Source: Myxococcales bacterium
Lineage (GTDB): Bacteria; Myxococcota_A; Polyangia; Polyangiales; Polyangiaceae
Direction: 5' to 3'
NCBI GenBank assembly: GCA_903642325.1
Contig: CAHJWM010000005.1
Span: 1-64,000, forward strand
Length of the DNA: 64,000 bases
The stretch's first letter is position 1; every line of letters starts with the position of its first letter. The notes under the pieces were generated by a model, which worked only from the letters and a program-made list of their open reading frames with translations, was not told where the DNA came from and made no database searches. The translations under genes and the position numbers were made by a program. Of this stretch, positions 896-23,346 are shown one piece after another.

Positions 896-3565
896 TTAGC
901 GGTATCGAACACGCTTTTGTTGTAGCGGCGCCCATTTGGTCGGCGGCACCACGGGCGTATCCGCAAACAGCCGGCGCGCGCCGGGTCCTTCGGCGCGTAC
1001 GAGGCTAACGCCGCCTGGCGCGCTCGCGGCGGGCTCACCGCCAGTGCCACTCGCCGCCACGTCGCGTTGACCACCCAGCTGGACGCCAAGCGGGCGCAGG
1101 AAGAACAAGCTCGAGCTGCAACCGAGATATTTCAGCAGATCGGCGAGCAGCGAGCCCTCGCCGCCGGGGCGCCCACCCGCGGTAAAGCGCACGAAGACCA
1201 ACATCCCGGCGGAGTCGATGCCAAAAGCGGAGGTCGCGCTGCCAGCGATCGCTTCGGCGCCCGCGAAGCCGCGCGTGATCAAGCTGGCGCCTCGCGGCGG
1301 CACGCTTCCGATCAGGAACTTCGAGCCGTCGTGATAGAGCGCGGCTTTGCCAATGCCTTCGCCGAGCGGCTGAGCGATTTCGAGCACGCGCTTTGCGTTC
1401 TGGTCAGCGGCGGCGGCGACGCGCAGAAATTTTGGATCCAAACGAAGGATGCCCACGCGCGTGTCGGCGCGCGCTGGGTCAGGGCGCAACGCCGTCTTGG
1501 CGACCGCGAACGGCCAACCATACTGCGGTAGGCCCTGCACACTCCACGCGCCTTCCCCTGGCTCCGCGGGCTCCATGAGTGGCTTGATTGGCTCTCCCGG
1601 CAGCACATGGCGCAGGGTCAGGTAGAAAAAATCGCGCGCCTCGGTGTTGATGTAGCGGGGGAAATTCATGAGCGCCATCAGGCGGATCATGCGTCGGCCC
1701 ATGAATTCCCAGCCGGCCATGCCGGTGATGGGCCCGCGCGCTTCCCACGTTTCGTCCAGCGTATGGCTCAGCTTGGGCAACATTCCTACAGGCGCCGCGC
1801 GATAGAACTCGAGCCCTGTATGACCCGGGTTCATGTCCAAGTGAATCGCGTAACTGCAGCGGGCTCGTTTCATGGCGAGGGCCAGCACGTCGGGGTCGAC
1901 GCTCGAGCCATAAAAATAACCAATGAAGCCTTCGCGAGTCATGCACAGCCCGCTGCGCACGGTGCGGGCCTCCTCCGTCCAACCCGGCGGCACGCCGCCC
2001 CACCAGTGGCGCTTGTAAGGATTGATTACTTCGTCCTGAAGGAGCGCGGTCATGTTTTGTCGAAACGACAGCACGTCGTCCGGCACGGCCGCTTGTTCGG
2101 GCCACGTACCGAATGCGGTAGACCCATCAGTCAGCTCAGCGACGGTCGCCGCGAACGGTTTCGGAGGCAGGTATAGGACCTTGTCCGCCATCATGCCGAA
2201 CTCGCCATGCACGGCTTGAAAGCCGCCATTGAAGCCGGCGAGGTAGCGGCTCATCACCTCCGGCGTGCGGGGCACGGTGCCCGGGCCAGTCTCACCGGTG
2301 GCGCTCTTCGGTTCGACCGTGCCGCTCATGGCGTGAAGCTCGACTTGGCGCGGGTCCCACATGGTCACGAAGACCTGCGAGTAGATACGATTCTGGTCGC
2401 TGCGAATGAAAGAGAAGACGAACGGCGAAGGTGCGCCTGGGTTTTTCTGAATGAAGGGATCTTTATCGAGCGAAGCCCACTTGCCCTCGCCTTGCAGCGG
2501 CGGGGACAACATGGGGATCATCGGCGCCGGTGGCCAACCGGTCTCGGGATCGGTATTCACGCTGGCGGGGGTGTCGAACAGATCACCGAGCTCCTCCTTC
2601 ACGCTGTCGGAACCGTCGTCTCCCGTCACGGTCCCTACGATCTGATTGAAGTGATCAACGCCATCGAAGGCCACGGCCTTCACCCACTGCATGCGGTCGT
2701 CTCCGAACCACGGCAGCGCACGCACGCGATCTACGGCCCAAGTGACCATGTTTCCGGGCCGCGCTTTGGGTGGAGTCTGCTCTCTTAGCCATGCATTTTG
2801 TGAAAGCGGCAACGCGGGGTCGGTCTGAATGCGAATCCGATGTGAGTCCGCGTCCACCAGCAGTGCGCGTTCCGAAAACCCGAGCACGACCTTGTACGCA
2901 GGCGGATCGAGCTTGAACTCACGCCGGCCCACCCCTTGCACTTGCCCGGTCTCCTGCAAGTTGGTGACCGAATTCTGGAGTCGAGAGAGCTGCGTCCAAG
3001 TGCGCCCCGTCGGTCGCGGCTCGCCGCGTAAGTCGGCATATTGAACGCTAGCAATCGCATTGTCTTCGCCGATCAGCCATGCGGCGCGATCGCCATTGAC
3101 GATCAGCCCGCGCTCGGCCGCCGCCGAGGTGTCCGAAACATCGAATACATCGGTCAGCTCGATCAAATGGCCTTCGGGTGAAACACGGGTCTCTACCAGA
3201 TAAACATCTGCGGGATCCGAACCGCGCTGGGCTAAGGCCACCGCTCTCGGACGACCAACCGGCGACTTGGCGAGCGTCAACGTGTCGCTGATGAAGTGGA
3301 CGTCGCCAGCATCTGCGCTGAGCCCCCGCTCGGCCAGCGCCATCACGATCGCGCGTGTAAGATCGGTCTCGTTGCGCGTGGCCTGCGCAACGCCGTCCGT
3401 GCGTTGCAACAACCACGTCAGCACCAACAAGAGCGGCATGGGCCGAAGGCCACGCAGCAAGCGTTGCGGCTCGAGCGCCTCCCGACCGATGTGCGGCAAG
3501 TGCGGCAAGTGCATGCGCCGCACGCGCGCGGCCAGTACGCCCGGACCCCAAGCATTACCCGCCAA
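896..3565 (-). CDS. Large membrane-anchored or secreted protein, possible phosphodiester glycosidase-like (NAGPA/DUF2233) domain
   Basis: 889 aa. The TTG start at 3565 is supported by a GGGAG Shine-Dalgarno about 8 nt upstream. A hydrophobic segment at residues 43-56 (PLLLVLTWLL) after an Arg-rich stretch suggests a signal anchor; a later ATG at residue 43 would turn it into a normal signal peptide. Around residues 440-455 is the signature FNGGFQAVHGEFGMM, and near 578 HLDMNPGHTGLEF; together they resemble the Asn/Gly-rich core of phosphodiester glycosidase-type (NAGPA) domains, where an FNGGFF motif and a later LDGG motif form the active site. The Asp-for-catalytic-Gly pattern is divergent, so the assignment is tentative. 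The N-terminal 350 residues are unrecognised. A sigma-54-like promoter lies directly upstream. Confidence 0.85.
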   Translation of the reverse strand: MAGNAWGPGVLAARVRRMHLPHLPHIGREALEPQRLLRGLRPMPLLLVLTWLLQRTDGVAQATRNETDLTRAIVMALAERGLSADAGDVHFISDTLTLAKSPVGRPRAVALAQRGSDPADVYLVETRVSPEGHLIELTDVFDVSDTSAAAERGLIVNGDRAAWLIGEDNAIASVQYADLRGEPRPTGRTWTQLSRLQNSVTNLQETGQVQGVGRREFKLDPPAYKVVLGFSERALLVDADSHRIRIQTDPALPLSQNAWLREQTPPKARPGNMVTWAVDRVRALPWFGDDRMQWVKAVAFDGVDHFNQIVGTVTGDDGSDSVKEELGDLFDTPASVNTDPETGWPPAPMIPMLSPPLQGEGKWASLDKDPFIQKNPGAPSPFVFSFIRSDQNRIYSQVFVTMWDPRQVELHAMSGTVEPKSATGETGPGTVPRTPEVMSRYLAGFNGGFQAVHGEFGMMADKVLYLPPKPFAATVAELTDGSTAFGTWPEQAAVPDDVLSFRQNMTALLQDEVINPYKRHWWGGVPPGWTEEARTVRSGLCMTREGFIGYFYGSSVDPDVLALAMKRARCSYAIHLDMNPGHTGLEFYRAAPVGMLPKLSHTLDETWEARGPITGMAGWEFMGRRMIRLMALMNFPRYINTEARDFFYLTLRHVLPGEPIKPLMEPAEPGEGAWSVQGLPQYGWPFAVAKTALRPDPARADTRVGILRLDPKFLRVAAAADQNAKRVLEIAQPLGEGIGKAALYHDGSKFLIGSVPPRGASLITRGFAGAEAIAGSATSAFGIDSAGMLVFVRFTAGGRPGGEGSLLADLLKYLGCSSSLFFLRPLGVQLGGQRDVAASGTGGEPAASAPGGVSLVRAEGPGARRLFADTPVVPPTKWAPLQQKRVRYR

Positions 3566-18749: not shown

Positions 18750-19424
18750 ATGTACATCATGCTGCTGCGTCACGGTGAAAGTGAGGGTAACGCACAAGGG
18801 CGCATGCAAGGCCGCCGCGATTATCCGCTCACTCCGCTTGGCCGCAGACAGGCCATGCGAGCGGGAGCATTCATCGCAGCTCAGGGGCCGTTCGCCGCCG
18901 TGTACACCTCGCCGCTTCGACGCGCGTCCGAGACGGCGGCGATCGTGGCGGCTCAGGGCGTGAGCCCACCTCCCATCGTGGAAGACGATCTGCATGAGCT
19001 GGCGGCGGGCTTGCTGGAGGGCATGAATGAAGCCGAAATCTGCGCGGCTTACCCCGCATTCATGGAGCGCAGCCTGACCGAAACCGGGGATTTTTCCGAG
19101 TACGGCGGCGAAAGCTATGAGGGCGTGCAAGCGCGGGTCAGGGGCGTGATGGCGCGGCTGGAAGCGCGCCATCGCTCCCATGAGGAGCGCGTGCTTTTGG
19201 TCGGTCACGGGGGCTTCCATTATCAGTTGTTGAAGGCCCTGCTATGCGAGCCGGTGCCGCGCGTGTGCATCCTGAAGATTGGCAATTGCGCGACCTCATT
19301 GCTGCGCTTACGCGAACGCCGGGGGCTGTACCTCGGCGAGCTGCTCTTTCATATTCCCGTCGAGCTAATGGCCGGCGAAGTTTTAGCTACTTCGGGCGAG
19401 GGCGCGGCGCGCCTGTTTCGATGA
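18750..19424 (+). CDS. Histidine phosphatase family protein (phosphoglycerate mutase-like)
   Basis: 224 aa. The N-terminus MYIMLLRHGESEGNAQGRMQG carries the RHG catalytic motif, with His8 as the phospho-acceptor; TPLGRRQA, YTSPLRRASETA (second Arg) and LLVGHGGFHYQLL (second catalytic His near 154) complete the four phosphate-pocket residues. These enzymes remove phosphate from small molecules or proteins; the substrate here is unknown. The stop overlaps the start of the XPB-like helicase gene (ATGA), so the phosphatase is made with the helicase-nuclease pair, which makes a nucleotide or DNA-end substrate conceivable, but that is speculation. Confidence 0.9.
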   Translation: MYIMLLRHGESEGNAQGRMQGRRDYPLTPLGRRQAMRAGAFIAAQGPFAAVYTSPLRRASETAAIVAAQGVSPPPIVEDDLHELAAGLLEGMNEAEICAAYPAFMERSLTETGDFSEYGGESYEGVQARVRGVMARLEARHRSHEERVLLVGHGGFHYQLLKALLCEPVPRVCILKIGNCATSLLRLRERRGLYLGELLFHIPVELMAGEVLATSGEGAARLFR

Positions 19425-20821
19425 ACGTTGCGCGAGACGGCACCGGTATCGAGGTCCTCTTTGCCGCGGGCACGCTCGAGCTACGCGGCGTGCTGCCTCC
19501 GGGTATCAAACTTACGCCGCACGCAGCGTGGGACGCCCGCAGTCGTTGCTTTCGCGCGCCCGCGCTGGCTTACGCCGATCTCGTCCGTTTCCTGCACCGC
19601 GAAGGCGTGGCGTTCGAGGATCGCGCGCGCGCGTACGTGGAGCTCGAGCGCGGACTCAGCGTGTCGCGCGAGCCGCGGCCGTTTCAAAGCGAAGCCTTGC
19701 GGGCTTGGCGCGAAGCCAAGGGCCGTGGCGTGGTGGTCTTGCCGACGGGAGCCGGCAAGAGCCATGTGGCAGTGCTGGCCATCGACGATAAGCGCCGGAG
19801 CACACTGGTCGTCGCGCCTACCCTGGACCTCGTGCGGCAATGGTACGATTTGCTGCGTACGAGCTTCGCGTGCGACGTCGGTGTGGTGGGAGGCGGGACG
19901 TACGACGTGCAGCCGCTGACCGTGACGACCTACGACTCGGCATGTTTGCATATGGATCATCTAGGCGCGCGCTTCGGGCTCGTCGTGTTCGACGAATGCC
20001 ATCACCTGCCCGGACCGAGCTATGCGCTTTCGGCGGAGCTTTGTCTCGCGCCGTTCCGACTGGGGCTCAGCGCGACGCCCGAGCGCAGTGACGGGCAGGA
20101 CGCGAAGCTCGTACGGCTGGTGGGGCCAACCGTTTACCGGAAAGACATCGTCGAGCTGAGTGGCCCATACCTAGCCGAATACGAGACCGTGCGCGTGGAG
20201 GTCGACCTGAGCGCCGAGGAACGCGCGGAATACGAGCTTGAGCGCGCCATCTATTTGGATTTCGTGCGCAGTCAGGGCATCCGCATGGGCAGCGCCCGCG
20301 GGTGGAATGATTTTATCATGCGCGCGGCTCGCTCGGGCCCGGGTCAACGAGCGATGCGCGCTTACCGACGCCAAAGGGAGCTCTCGCTCGGCGCGCAAGC
20401 CAAGCTCGAACACTTGGAGCGCCTGCTCGAGGCGCATCGCACCGAAAAGGTGCTGATCTTCACCCAGGACAACGCCACTGCATACAGCATCTCGAGACGT
20501 TTCCTGGTTCCGATCATCACTCACCAAACCAAGATCAAAGAGCGCAGCGAAATCCTGGAACGCTTTGCGGACGGCCGCTATCGCGCCATCGCGACCTCAA
20601 AAGTCTTGAACGAGGGCGTCGACGTGCCCGACGCGAGCGTCGCCATCGTCATCAGCGGCAGTGGCTCGGTGCGCGAGCACGTGCAGCGCCTCGGTCGCAT
20701 TCTACGCAGAAAAGGTGATAAATTTGCAACGCTGTACGAGCTCGTGTCACGCAAGACGGGCGAGGTGTTCACGAGCGAACGGCGCCGAGAACATGCGGCG
20801 TACGGTGGGGGCGGCGCATGA
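19421..20821 (+). CDS. XPB/Ssl2-type DNA helicase (SF2)
   Basis: 466 aa from ATG 19421, which overlaps the phosphatase stop; an upstream in-frame extension is antisense-like and ignored. XPB is a 3'-5' DNA translocase used in nucleotide excision repair. Order: N-terminal damage-recognition-like domain (1-85), motif I LPTGAGKSHVA (107-117), motif Ia VAPTLDLV, motif II VVFDECHHLPG (Walker B DECH at 191-194), motif III LGLSATPERSD, motif V ATSKVLNEGVDVPD and motif VI HVQRLGRILRRKGDK. In the classical family the residues after SATP form an R-E-D motif; here it reads R-S-D. The adjacent gene encodes the Bax1-type nuclease, its known partner in archaea and bacteria, with a 4-bp overlap. Confidence 0.93.
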   Translation: MNVARDGTGIEVLFAAGTLELRGVLPPGIKLTPHAAWDARSRCFRAPALAYADLVRFLHREGVAFEDRARAYVELERGLSVSREPRPFQSEALRAWREAKGRGVVVLPTGAGKSHVAVLAIDDKRRSTLVVAPTLDLVRQWYDLLRTSFACDVGVVGGGTYDVQPLTVTTYDSACLHMDHLGARFGLVVFDECHHLPGPSYALSAELCLAPFRLGLSATPERSDGQDAKLVRLVGPTVYRKDIVELSGPYLAEYETVRVEVDLSAEERAEYELERAIYLDFVRSQGIRMGSARGWNDFIMRAARSGPGQRAMRAYRRQRELSLGAQAKLEHLERLLEAHRTEKVLIFTQDNATAYSISRRFLVPIITHQTKIKERSEILERFADGRYRAIATSKVLNEGVDVPDASVAIVISGSGSVREHVQRLGRILRRKGDKFATLYELVSRKTGEVFTSERRREHAAYGGGGA

Positions 20822-22053
20822 TCGGGCCCGATTTGGTACGGGCGCGAAAACGCAATGGCGTGCTCGCTCTGGCTAAGGAATCCGTCGAGGCGCGCGCGCG
20901 GGCGCGGACGCTGGCCGAAGAGGTGCTGCTGATCATCGCGACCCATGTCGACCAGACGCGCGTGGTGCTCGAAGGGGCGCTTTCGGAGTTGGCGATGGCG
21001 CCCCAGGAGCGAAAGCTCGCGATGGCTCTGAAGAAGCTCGCTCTAGACGACAGCGCGTTCGACGGCAACCCCACGCTCGACGCTCCCGCCTTGCGCCGCG
21101 AAGTGTTCTCGCGCGCCGTCGTTGCTCGCGAGGCGCTCGCCTTGGGGGCCCGATTCGAGCGCGCCACGGTGATCGCAGAGGTAGCGGCTCGCTTGGGCGT
21201 CACGCCAGATGCCCTCGAATCCGGGCTGTACTCGGATCTGCGCAGCGCGCAGCGGCTGCGCGGGGCCCCGATCTACGATGCTGATGGACTTCTAGCGCGC
21301 CACGCGCGGGCCGAGGTGCAAGCCGTCCTTCTGTGCTCGGTGCGTGTCGTAGTCGAGGTGCGCTGCGCCACTGCCGACCAGTATCGCGCGCTCTTTCATA
21401 AGCTGAAGTTTCGGCAACTGCTGTTCGAGATGTCGAGCCTGGAGAGCGGTGGCTATCGCATCGAGATCGATGGCCCTTACAGCTTGTTCGAATCGGTGAC
21501 CAAGTACGGGCTGGAGCTCGCGCTCCTGTTGCCAGCCTTAGAAGCATGCGACAGCGTCAAGCTTTCGGCGGACCTACGTTGGGGCAAAAAGCGCGAGCAG
21601 CTGCGCTTCGCCGTCGATTTGACCCGCGCCGAGCTTTCTGAGCCGGCGCCCGCGCGCGATGACGTACAGGGTCTGCTCGATGGCTTTCGCCAAGGCGCGC
21701 ACTGGCGCGCTGAGCCCGCGCGCGAAGTGCTGGATTTGCCCGGGATCGGTCTGTGCGTCCCGGACCTTTGCTTCACCCACCAGGTCACCGGGGAGCAGGT
21801 GCTCTGCGAGGTGCTCGGGTTTTGGAATCGGGCGGCGGTGTGGCGCCGGATCGAGCTCGTGGAAAAAGGCCTGGCGCATAAGATCGTGTTCGTGGTCAGC
21901 GCACGCCTGCGCGTCAGCGAAGAGATGCTGGACGGCGCCGAGTCGGCCGCGCTCTACGTGTACAAGGGCAGCATCAACCAAAAGGCGCTCGAGCGAAAGC
22001 TCGAGGAGCTCGTCGCGCCCGCGCCCGCGCGCCGTTCCAAATGCACGAAATGA
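20818..22053 (+). CDS. Bax1-type nuclease, DUF790 (XPB partner)
   Basis: 411 aa. Bax1 proteins form a helicase-nuclease complex with XPB. The match rests on the N-terminal IGPDLVRARKRNGVL, a middle region with RALFHKLKFRQLLFEM and GYRIEIDGPYSLFESVTKYGL (DUF790 signature, about 190-235), and a C-terminal restriction-endonuclease-like core GLCVPDLCFTHQVTGEQVLCEVLGFW (302-330), i.e. Pro-Asp then Glu-x-x with Gly-Phe-Trp. The basic residue usually following as Lys is carried by an RRIELVEKG stretch. It starts inside the helicase stop (ATGA). Length is near the family's usual 400-450. Substrate strand and polarity cannot be read from sequence. Confidence 0.92.
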   Translation: MIGPDLVRARKRNGVLALAKESVEARARARTLAEEVLLIIATHVDQTRVVLEGALSELAMAPQERKLAMALKKLALDDSAFDGNPTLDAPALRREVFSRAVVAREALALGARFERATVIAEVAARLGVTPDALESGLYSDLRSAQRLRGAPIYDADGLLARHARAEVQAVLLCSVRVVVEVRCATADQYRALFHKLKFRQLLFEMSSLESGGYRIEIDGPYSLFESVTKYGLELALLLPALEACDSVKLSADLRWGKKREQLRFAVDLTRAELSEPAPARDDVQGLLDGFRQGAHWRAEPAREVLDLPGIGLCVPDLCFTHQVTGEQVLCEVLGFWNRAAVWRRIELVEKGLAHKIVFVVSARLRVSEEMLDGAESAALYVYKGSINQKALERKLEELVAPAPARRSKCTK

Positions 22054-22092: not shown

Positions 22093-22740
22093 ATGACGCG
22101 TCGCGCCGAGACCGCCAATAGCATTCGTAAGACGGGCGTGATTGCCGTCGTGCGGACGCGCGAGTCGGACCGTGTCGCAGCCATCGCCGAGGCGTTGATC
22201 GAGGGCGGCCTGACCGCGATTGAAATCACGACCTCGGTGCCGGGGGCAGTGGATGTCCTGCGCACGTTGTCTGGCGCTCTCGGGACGCGCGTGCTGCTTG
22301 GCGCCGGCACGGTGCTGGACGCGGAAACCGCACGCCGCGTGATCGACGCTGGCGCGCGTTTTGTCGTCTCGCCCATATTTCGGCGCGATTTGCTGAAGCT
22401 GTGTCACGAACAAGACGTGGCGGTCATCCCCGGTTGTTTTACGCCCACGGAGATTTTCGAGGCCTGGGAGTCCGGCGCCGATTTCGTGAACGTGTTTCCG
22501 GCCCAGGCACTGGGCCCGGCTTATTTCCGCGCGCTTCGTGGCCCGGTTCCCCATCTGCCGATCATCGCCTCCGGTGGTGTCACGCTGGACAACGTGGCCG
22601 AGTGGATCGGCGTCGGGGCGGTGGCGCTCGCGGTACACACGGCGTTGCTCGATCCGCAGTCGATCGCGAGCGCCCACTACGGCGTGCTCACCGCGCGCGC
22701 TAGCGCATTTTTGGCGGCGGTCAAACAGGCCAGGGCCTGA
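22093..22740 (+). CDS. KDPG/KHG aldolase-family protein lacking the Schiff-base lysine
   Basis: 215 aa, the normal length for Eda-type (beta/alpha)8 aldolases. Conserved family features: GVIAVVR (15-21), IEITTSVPGA with Glu44, LGAGTVLD (69-76), VSPIF (92-96), IPGCFTPTEIFEAWESGAD (112-130), and IIASGGVTLDN (157-167). The key lysine, expected in VKLFPA or FKFFPA, is Asn133 here (FVNVFPAQALGP); AAC in place of AAG or AAA. Without it the class I Schiff-base mechanism should fail. The usual PTGGV is ASGGV. It may be a non-aldolase or an inactive paralogue. It is 40 bp after the nuclease gene and 10 bp before the DTW-family gene. Confidence 0.9.
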   Translation: MTRRAETANSIRKTGVIAVVRTRESDRVAAIAEALIEGGLTAIEITTSVPGAVDVLRTLSGALGTRVLLGAGTVLDAETARRVIDAGARFVVSPIFRRDLLKLCHEQDVAVIPGCFTPTEIFEAWESGADFVNVFPAQALGPAYFRALRGPVPHLPIIASGGVTLDNVAEWIGVGAVALAVHTALLDPQSIASAHYGVLTARASAFLAAVKQARA

Positions 22741-22749
22741 GCATCGGGC

Positions 22750-23346
22750 ATGCGTTCGGTCACGCCCTCGGATCTGGCCGGGCATTGCCCGCGCTGCGTC
22801 TTGCCGCTGCCCATCTGCGTGTGCGAAGTGTTGCCGCGCGTGCTGGCGACGACGGAGATCATCCTCATTCGTCACGTGACCGAGCTCAAGCTCACCCACA
22901 ATACGGGGCGCTTCGCCGCGCTCGCGTTGCCCAATTCCCGTTTGCTCAGCTACGGCGGCGGCCCCTCGTTCGACTCGGCCGGCCTCCGCGAGCCGAGCAC
23001 AGCCCTGCTTTATTGCAGTGGGCCAGCGCGGCCCGTGTCCTTCGTGCCGCGGCGACTGGTTGTTCTCGACGGCAGCTTTCGGCAGGCCCGGCGCATGTAC
23101 AAGCGCGTGCCCGCTTTGCGCGAGCTACCCGAGCTCACGTTGCCCGCGCTCGCGGTCGCTCCGACTCGGCTCCGACAGCCGCCTCGACCGGAGGGCATGT
23201 CGACGATTGAAGCCATCGCGGAGGCGCTGGCCTTGCTCGAGGGCCCTGAGCGTGCCGAGCCGCTCCGGGCCTTCTATGCCGAGTTGGTACGGCGCGCGGA
23301 TTACATGCGCGGCCGCAAGCGCGAGCTCGTCACTTCGGGTCCTTGA
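22750..23346 (+). CDS. DTW-domain tRNA-uridine aminocarboxypropyltransferase-like protein
   Basis: 198 aa. DTW-family enzymes (TapT/YfiP) transfer the aminocarboxypropyl group of SAM to uridine-47 of tRNA to give acp3U. Features: N-terminal zinc-type cysteines CPRCVLPLPICVCE (13-26), EIILIRHVTELKLTHNTGRF (36-55), and the hallmark VVLDGSFRQARRMY, where the usual D-x-T-W is D-G-S-F; late in the protein MSTIEAIAEALALLEG matches the family's STLEA helix. Length is slightly short of E. coli (232). It overlaps the convergent membrane-protein gene by 17 bp at the 3' ends. Assignment to the family is secure; activity with the changed motif is not. Confidence 0.85.
   Translation: MRSVTPSDLAGHCPRCVLPLPICVCEVLPRVLATTEIILIRHVTELKLTHNTGRFAALALPNSRLLSYGGGPSFDSAGLREPSTALLYCSGPARPVSFVPRRLVVLDGSFRQARRMYKRVPALRELPELTLPALAVAPTRLRQPPRPEGMSTIEAIAEALALLEGPERAEPLRAFYAELVRRADYMRGRKRELVTSGP

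Follow-up and report, generated by a model that had tools for sequence, protein, structure and literature searches.

An Eda-type aldolase-fold protein from a Myxococcales bacterium with asparagine at the Schiff-base lysine position is probably no longer a KDPG/KHG aldolase

The stretch of DNA analysed here, hereafter the window, comprises 64,000 nucleotides of contig CAHJWM010000005.1 from the assembly of a Myxococcales bacterium. It contains an uninterrupted reading frame, from ATG to TGA, for a complete homologue of Eda, the KDPG/KHG aldolase, preceded by genes for an XPB/RAD25-type helicase and for a Bax1-like DUF790 protein, and followed by a gene for a DTW-domain protein (Table 1). These neighbours presumably have roles in DNA repair and RNA modification, and we assume that the helicase and the DUF790 protein, whose genes overlap by 4 bp, represent an archaeal-type repair pair, here found in a bacterium. 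The short gaps on either side of the aldolase gene (39 bp upstream, 9 bp downstream) make co-transcription possible, and the gene may therefore be transcribed together with the DUF790 and DTW-domain genes. No promoter-like site was found at its locus, and a terminator-like hairpin at 22500 was dropped as a candidate, since one was found where 1.7 are expected by chance. The GC3 of the gene (0.79) is in line with that of 8 other measured genes (0.73-0.82).

Table 1. Features of the locus, in window coordinates, and two KDPGal-aldolase-like proteins from elsewhere in the phylum, in the numbering of loci L109 and L199.
Feature	Coordinates	Strand	Basis
XPB/RAD25-type helicase, upstream; true start may lie further in	19244..20821	+	Pfam XPB_DRD, ERCC3_RAD25_C, ResIII on 19424-20818
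DUF790 (Bax1-like) protein, upstream neighbour, 39 bp from the aldolase gene	20818..22053	+	Pfam PF05626, 225.7 bits
Eda-type (KDPG/KHG aldolase fold) protein, 215 aa	22093..22740	+	Reading frame, Pfam/NCBIfam profiles, 1WA3 alignment, AlphaFold
Codon 44, Glu, kept; place of E. coli Glu45	22222..22224	+	Alignment
Codons 47-48, Thr-Ser (nearest group Met-Thr); Ser48 corresponds to E. coli Arg49	22231..22236	+	Alignment
Codon 133, AAC (Asn); Lys in relatives	22489..22491	+	Codon reading, relative alignments
Codons 159-160, Ala-Ser (nearest group Pro-Thr); first phosphate loop	22567..22572	+	Alignment
Codon 182, His (Gly in 97/114 relatives); second phosphate loop	22636..22638	+	Alignment
DTW-domain protein, downstream neighbour, 9 bp from the aldolase gene	22750..23346	+	Pfam PF03942, 95.9 bits
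KDPGal-aldolase-like protein, Gln or Glu at lysine, L109 (G176)	1501-2103		NF006600
KDPGal-aldolase-like protein, Gln or Glu at lysine, L199 (G317)	198-716	minus	NF006600

By profile and by fold the window protein belongs to the Eda family. It scores 134.5 bits against Pfam PF01081 (cut-off 27.8) and 172.6 against NCBIfam TIGR01182 (cut-off 156.05), and falls below the cut-off of the KDPGal aldolase model NF006600 (146 vs 207), of which it is not a member. Its AlphaFold model, made with a 35-sequence alignment, has a pLDDT of 96.7 and shows eight strands and an intact Eda-type alpha/beta barrel; the closest solved structures in VIA-align (8DI1, Z 33.8, 1.4 A over 213; 1WA3, Z 32.4, 1.3 A over 201) are KDPG aldolases or proteins derived from them.

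In class I aldolases a lysine reacts with the donor substrate to give an imine (PMC2431125), and in E. coli Eda the catalytic residue is Lys133, with Glu45, Arg49, Thr73, Pro94 and Phe135 as substrate residues (PMC5334617). Alignment with the T. maritima KDPG aldolase 1WA3 sets Asn133 of the window protein opposite the catalytic lysine, so that strand 6 bears asparagine at the Schiff-base position; its codon is one base away from AAG, and on both counts the original prediction was right. When compared with class I Eda (TIGR01182; 1WA3 from T. maritima, 1FQ0 from E. coli), the protein is alike in fold, length, Glu44, Thr73, Pro94, Phe135 and Gly161-Gly162, and differs in Asn133, in Ser48 at the place of Arg49 and in two loops: Ala-Ser-Gly-Gly where Eda has Pro-Thr-Gly-Gly, and Ala-Val-His-Thr where Eda has Gly-x-Gly-Ser. 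The first of these loops is thus kept in part and the second is not. We take the Thr-Gly-Gly and Gly-x-Gly-Ser loops to be phosphate-binding. The scaffold motifs had been described as all present, phosphate-site glycines included; this holds for Glu44, Gly161 and Gly162, and fails for the second loop, with Ala180 and His182, and for Ala159-Ser160 ahead of the Gly-Gly pair.

These departures are set against a strongly conserved background. In a first set of 114 non-redundant relatives, restricted to the better matches and taken from the loci of several genome searches, column 133 is Lys in 114/114. Ahead of the Gly-Gly pair, Pro is found in 110/114 and Thr in 100/114 relatives; at position 180, Gly in 74/114 and Ala, as in the window protein, in 10/114; and at the place of Arg49, Thr in 78/114. 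A larger set of 155 rows, which includes the window protein and distant matches, has Lys133 in 137; among the 18 other rows, 14 fall into a single group (eight with Ala, five with Ser, one with Cys), the window protein has Asn, L109 has Gln, and L021 and L197 are spurious or partial matches. In addition, protein P0003, read by eye against L109, has Glu at this position. Residue 133 was read in fetched and aligned loci, which exclude the lower-ranked matches of four genome-set searches, L148, L155 and the plasmid matches; among the rows so read, Asn133 is unique to the window protein and His182 is likewise without match, and every aligned full-length relative of more than 32% identity carries Lys133.

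How far the change at codon 133 stands alone can be judged from the nearest group (alignment A2, 29 sequences), in which columns were called conserved, separately for each row, when at least 90% of the other rows agreed. Like alignment A1, A2 consists of better matches and leaves out, among others, L015-L021, L023-L025 and L105-L114, lysine-less proteins being among those left out. The window protein keeps 46 of its 52 conserved columns and breaks six (M47T, T48S, K133N, P159A, T160S and G182H), and both phosphate loops are affected; the claim of clean conservation apart from the lysine is contradicted by this count. Four of ten conserved columns on a list of active-site positions are broken, against two of the 42 others, which both flank listed ones (Fisher p = 0.009, an optimistic value because the list of active-site residues was fixed after some of the changes were known). 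Only one of the 28 other rows exceeds the window protein: L130, which keeps the lysine, breaks 8/52 columns, three of them on the active-site list (F135Y, T160S and G182A).

Alignment with relatives, the check proposed with the original prediction, shows that the nearest homologues of the window protein, at about 50% identity, carry Lys133; at that distance they do not stand for the close orthologues named in its refuting condition. The closest are 50-54% identical (the best, at 53.7%, being Lys-bearing), and most belong to the same phylum as G457, which carries locus L030 and whose record is titled Acidobacteria; further relatives at about 50% come from records titled Ignavibacteria and Vicinamibacterales. 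The best match in the protein's own family reaches 48%, those in its own genus 41-44%, and a second copy in the genus genome G005 35%. In the tree the window protein falls in a 57-row clade (support 93/84, not starred), together with its nearest relatives and with rows from Gemmatimonadota, Bacteroidota, Chloroflexota and its own phylum; its tip measures 0.67 changes per column vs a median of 0.2, and the fork joining it to the nearest relatives is without resolution, in a bootstrap that had not settled. No orthologue of more than 54% identity was found in whole-genome protein searches amounting to 1,283 genome look-ups in overlapping sets. No close orthologue with Asn was present in the relatives (59 genomes), the own family (108) or the phylum sample (377), in the class set (317 genomes, among the matches listed, to E 1e-40), in a 396-genome sample from the phylum of G457, in the order of G808 (19 genomes, one match) or in 49 loci of genome contigs. 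The 401 plasmid records matched were all below 60% identity, and viral contigs gave no relative.

The genomic setting also separates the gene from the pathway in which an Eda would be expected. At the nearest-group loci L030 and L131 the gene order is SDR - Eda - PfkB kinase. Among the five genus mates with an aldolase match, a PfkB kinase adjoins the aldolase in G001 and G007; in G005 it lies within 1 kb only of the second, 35% aldolase copy; and in G002 and G006, whose aldolases are Lys-bearing, the aldolase and kinase matches are on different contigs, so that kinase-aldolase linkage is not general in the genus. The window's own genome has a single PfkB match (38%), on another contig and beside no aldolase. 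Nor is the arrangement at the window locus shared: DUF790 is present in 8/8 genus genomes, the aldolase and the best DUF790 match are on different contigs in all five genus mates with an aldolase match, and no aldolase follows DUF790 in L116 or L117, the two loci read. Protein and PF01081 profile searches found no second Eda for the normal job in the own genome, where the window protein is the sole PF01081 member; the PF01081 search was positive in 8/14 control genomes. No edd exceeded its cut-off in 8/8 genus genomes, compared with 2/14 control genomes above it, and the match in the own genome scored 228 bits vs a cut-off of 708; such sub-cut-off matches are presumably the related dehydratase IlvD. 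The Entner-Doudoroff/KDG gene set, defined as edd or an adjoining KDG kinase, was therefore not found.

Eda-fold proteins without the lysine do occur elsewhere in the phylum. Of 20 regions around distant matches, 13 encode an Eda-fold protein without the lysine and six encode one that has it; the last is unrelated. The 13 (L179-L188 and L191-L193, L179 being almost the same as L180, and L186 truncated at a contig end) come from 13 genomes in families f3, f4, f5 and f9 of the window's order, and the group was found in 6/22 same-order genomes of the relatives set. Position 133, in window numbering, is Ala in seven, Ser in five and Cys in one, position 44 is Gly in seven and Ala in six, and Pro46, Glu120, Pro136 and Asp182 are present in 13/13; a ligand without phosphate would be predicted from Asp182. 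Seven members scanned with PF01081 gave 58.9-85.4 bits, and the six scanned with NCBIfam were all below the TIGR01182 cut-off. When L019, from a further contig of G044, is counted in, the group makes up a single 14-row clade (FastTree support 0.73), with the window protein outside it. Their neighbours differ by branch: in 5/13 loci they are genes whose L191 representatives match CTP_transf_like, Cons_hypoth95 and MATCAP, and in 4/13 loci genes whose L179 representatives match SPFH/Band 7 (two genes) and, with a score under the Pfam cut-off, NfeD. This Lys-less and Glu-less group is a candidate conserved pseudoenzyme and is more widespread than the window gene. Separately, two genomes of genus g141 encode KDPGal-aldolase-like proteins that score above the NF006600 cut-off, keep the catalytic Glu and have Gln (L109) or Glu (P0003) for the lysine. 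The group and the g141 cases are more interesting than the window gene itself.

A further variation was seen among Lys-bearing Eda proteins of the phylum: L012, L013, L088, L089, L091, L092, L097-L099 and L101-L104 have Thr-Asn-Gly, Thr-Ser-Gly or Thr-His-Gly for Thr-Gly-Gly, and lack Gly182. These proteins may act on unphosphorylated substrates.

Our preferred explanation, to which we assign a probability of roughly 0.55, is that the window gene encodes a folded, Eda-derived protein without Schiff-base catalysis, either a relic or an early pseudoenzyme. The substitutions are what this explanation rests on. Judged from the sequence and the model, the Schiff-base aldol reaction has likely been lost, because Lys133 is absent, no lysine stands at a strand end, and the substrate and phosphate loops are changed; with the lysine gone and both phosphate loops altered, cleavage of KDPG would not be expected. 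Residue 129 of the I3-01 nanocage is taken to be the catalytic lysine. This nanocage originates from the trimeric T. maritima KDPG aldolase (PMC9801105) and is in use with K129A (PMC12148025), suggesting that the fold should survive loss of the lysine. The protein is thus probably no longer a KDPG/KHG aldolase, whether it is now a folded relic or has a new job. It probably descends from an aldolase encoded in a gene group of the order SDR - Eda - KDG kinase, like those at the two nearest loci read. In the window lineage the gene sits between the helicase/DUF790 pair and the DTW-domain gene, with no edd detected in the genome and no KDG-kinase-like gene adjoining it, and once freed from that pathway it would have lost Lys133 and had its substrate and phosphate loops remodelled, with the barrel and Glu44 kept. 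Today the protein would most likely be either a relic without activity or an early pseudoenzyme, in whose barrel a small keto acid may still bind. The intact frame, the host-like GC3 and the conserved columns still in place suggest that the loss is recent or that some function is kept, since more decay would be expected of a relic that had long evolved neutrally.

The main rival is a protein repurposed under selection, either as a lysine-independent enzyme, with enolisation by Glu44 together with Asn133 and His182, or as a ligand-sensing pseudoenzyme. We regard it as tentative. Changes found only in and around the active site, with the scaffold and Glu44 retained in an intact frame of host-like codon use, would be in keeping with such a history, and the Lys-less/Glu-less group, spread over 13 genomes and four families of the same phylum, indicates that lysine-free Eda-fold proteins can be kept. 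However, a state seen in one genome, with Asn133 and His182 shared by no sequence read, gives no sign of maintenance, and a Pfam scan of the neighbours recognised no functional partner gene near the window gene. Of the different role that had been predicted for the protein, then, the likely loss of the lysine-dependent reaction is retained, and selection for a new role, or as a regulatory pseudoenzyme, is hypothetical.

It is unlikely that the protein is still a working aldolase, acting through another lysine or through Asn133 itself. A precedent for the former exists in 1FWR, according to its PDB entry title the K133Q/T161K form of E. coli KDPG aldolase, in which the catalytic lysine has been relocated to 161 and which reportedly keeps activity. 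Yet the window equivalent of 161 is Ser160, and the phosphate loops are changed too. The three remaining lysines (13, 102 and 211) lie within helices of the model (3-14, 98-106 and 196-214), away from the strand ends, which disfavours a moved lysine of the 1FWR kind. Both 1FWR and I3-01 K129A share with the window protein the same barrel without its native lysine, but they are laboratory constructs, and 1FWR has a replacement lysine where the window protein has none.

That codon 133 reflects a mistake in sequencing or assembly is less probable still. The gene is known from one draft genome of 140 contigs with 3.49% contamination, and AAC could arise from AAG by one miscalled base; nevertheless, the five other conserved-site substitutions around the active site would themselves require error or coincidence, in a clean frame, and these several changes make a bare sequencing error unlikely. 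The lysine-less proteins found elsewhere in the phylum, moreover, mean that absence of the lysine is by itself no sign of error, and that such proteins can persist. Least probable of all is that the window protein belongs to the separate lysine-less group, with which it has in common the fold, the phylum and, in part, alanine ahead of Gly-Gly and an altered residue 182, since it is only 25.5-30.2% identical to that group vs 53.7% to the nearest Lys-bearing Eda, stands outside the clade, and has Glu44, Thr46 and His182 where the group lacks Glu44 and has Pro46 and Asp182 in 13/13.

Taken together, these comparisons place the window protein, the lysine-less group and the KDPGal-aldolase variants side by side as Eda-fold proteins without the Schiff-base lysine. 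The group is from the same phylum as the window protein, and L109 and P0003, members of a family to which the latter does not belong, represent a separate loss of the lysine with the Glu kept, as in the window protein. Among the matches listed in the open-licence literature, searches that included Eda in myxobacteria returned no report of a natural lysine-less or pseudo-Eda. Three lineages or more have lost the lysine: the window protein (Asn), genus g141 (Gln or Glu) and the Glu-less group (Ala, Ser or Cys). It is conceivable, rather than likely, that this repeated loss points to a role of the barrel that needs no lysine, ligand-binding or enolising, of which the window gene would be a fresh, Glu-bearing case.

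These proteins matter for annotation. Curated score cut-offs would name the window protein (by TIGR01182) and the two KDPGal-like ones (by NF006600) aldolases, each of them without the catalytic lysine, and pathways reconstructed from these labels may be credited with an aldolase step that the genome lacks. Should the barrels without the lysine prove functional, they would represent a natural series, from Lys with Glu, through Glu only, to neither, for the reuse of the class I aldolase scaffold.
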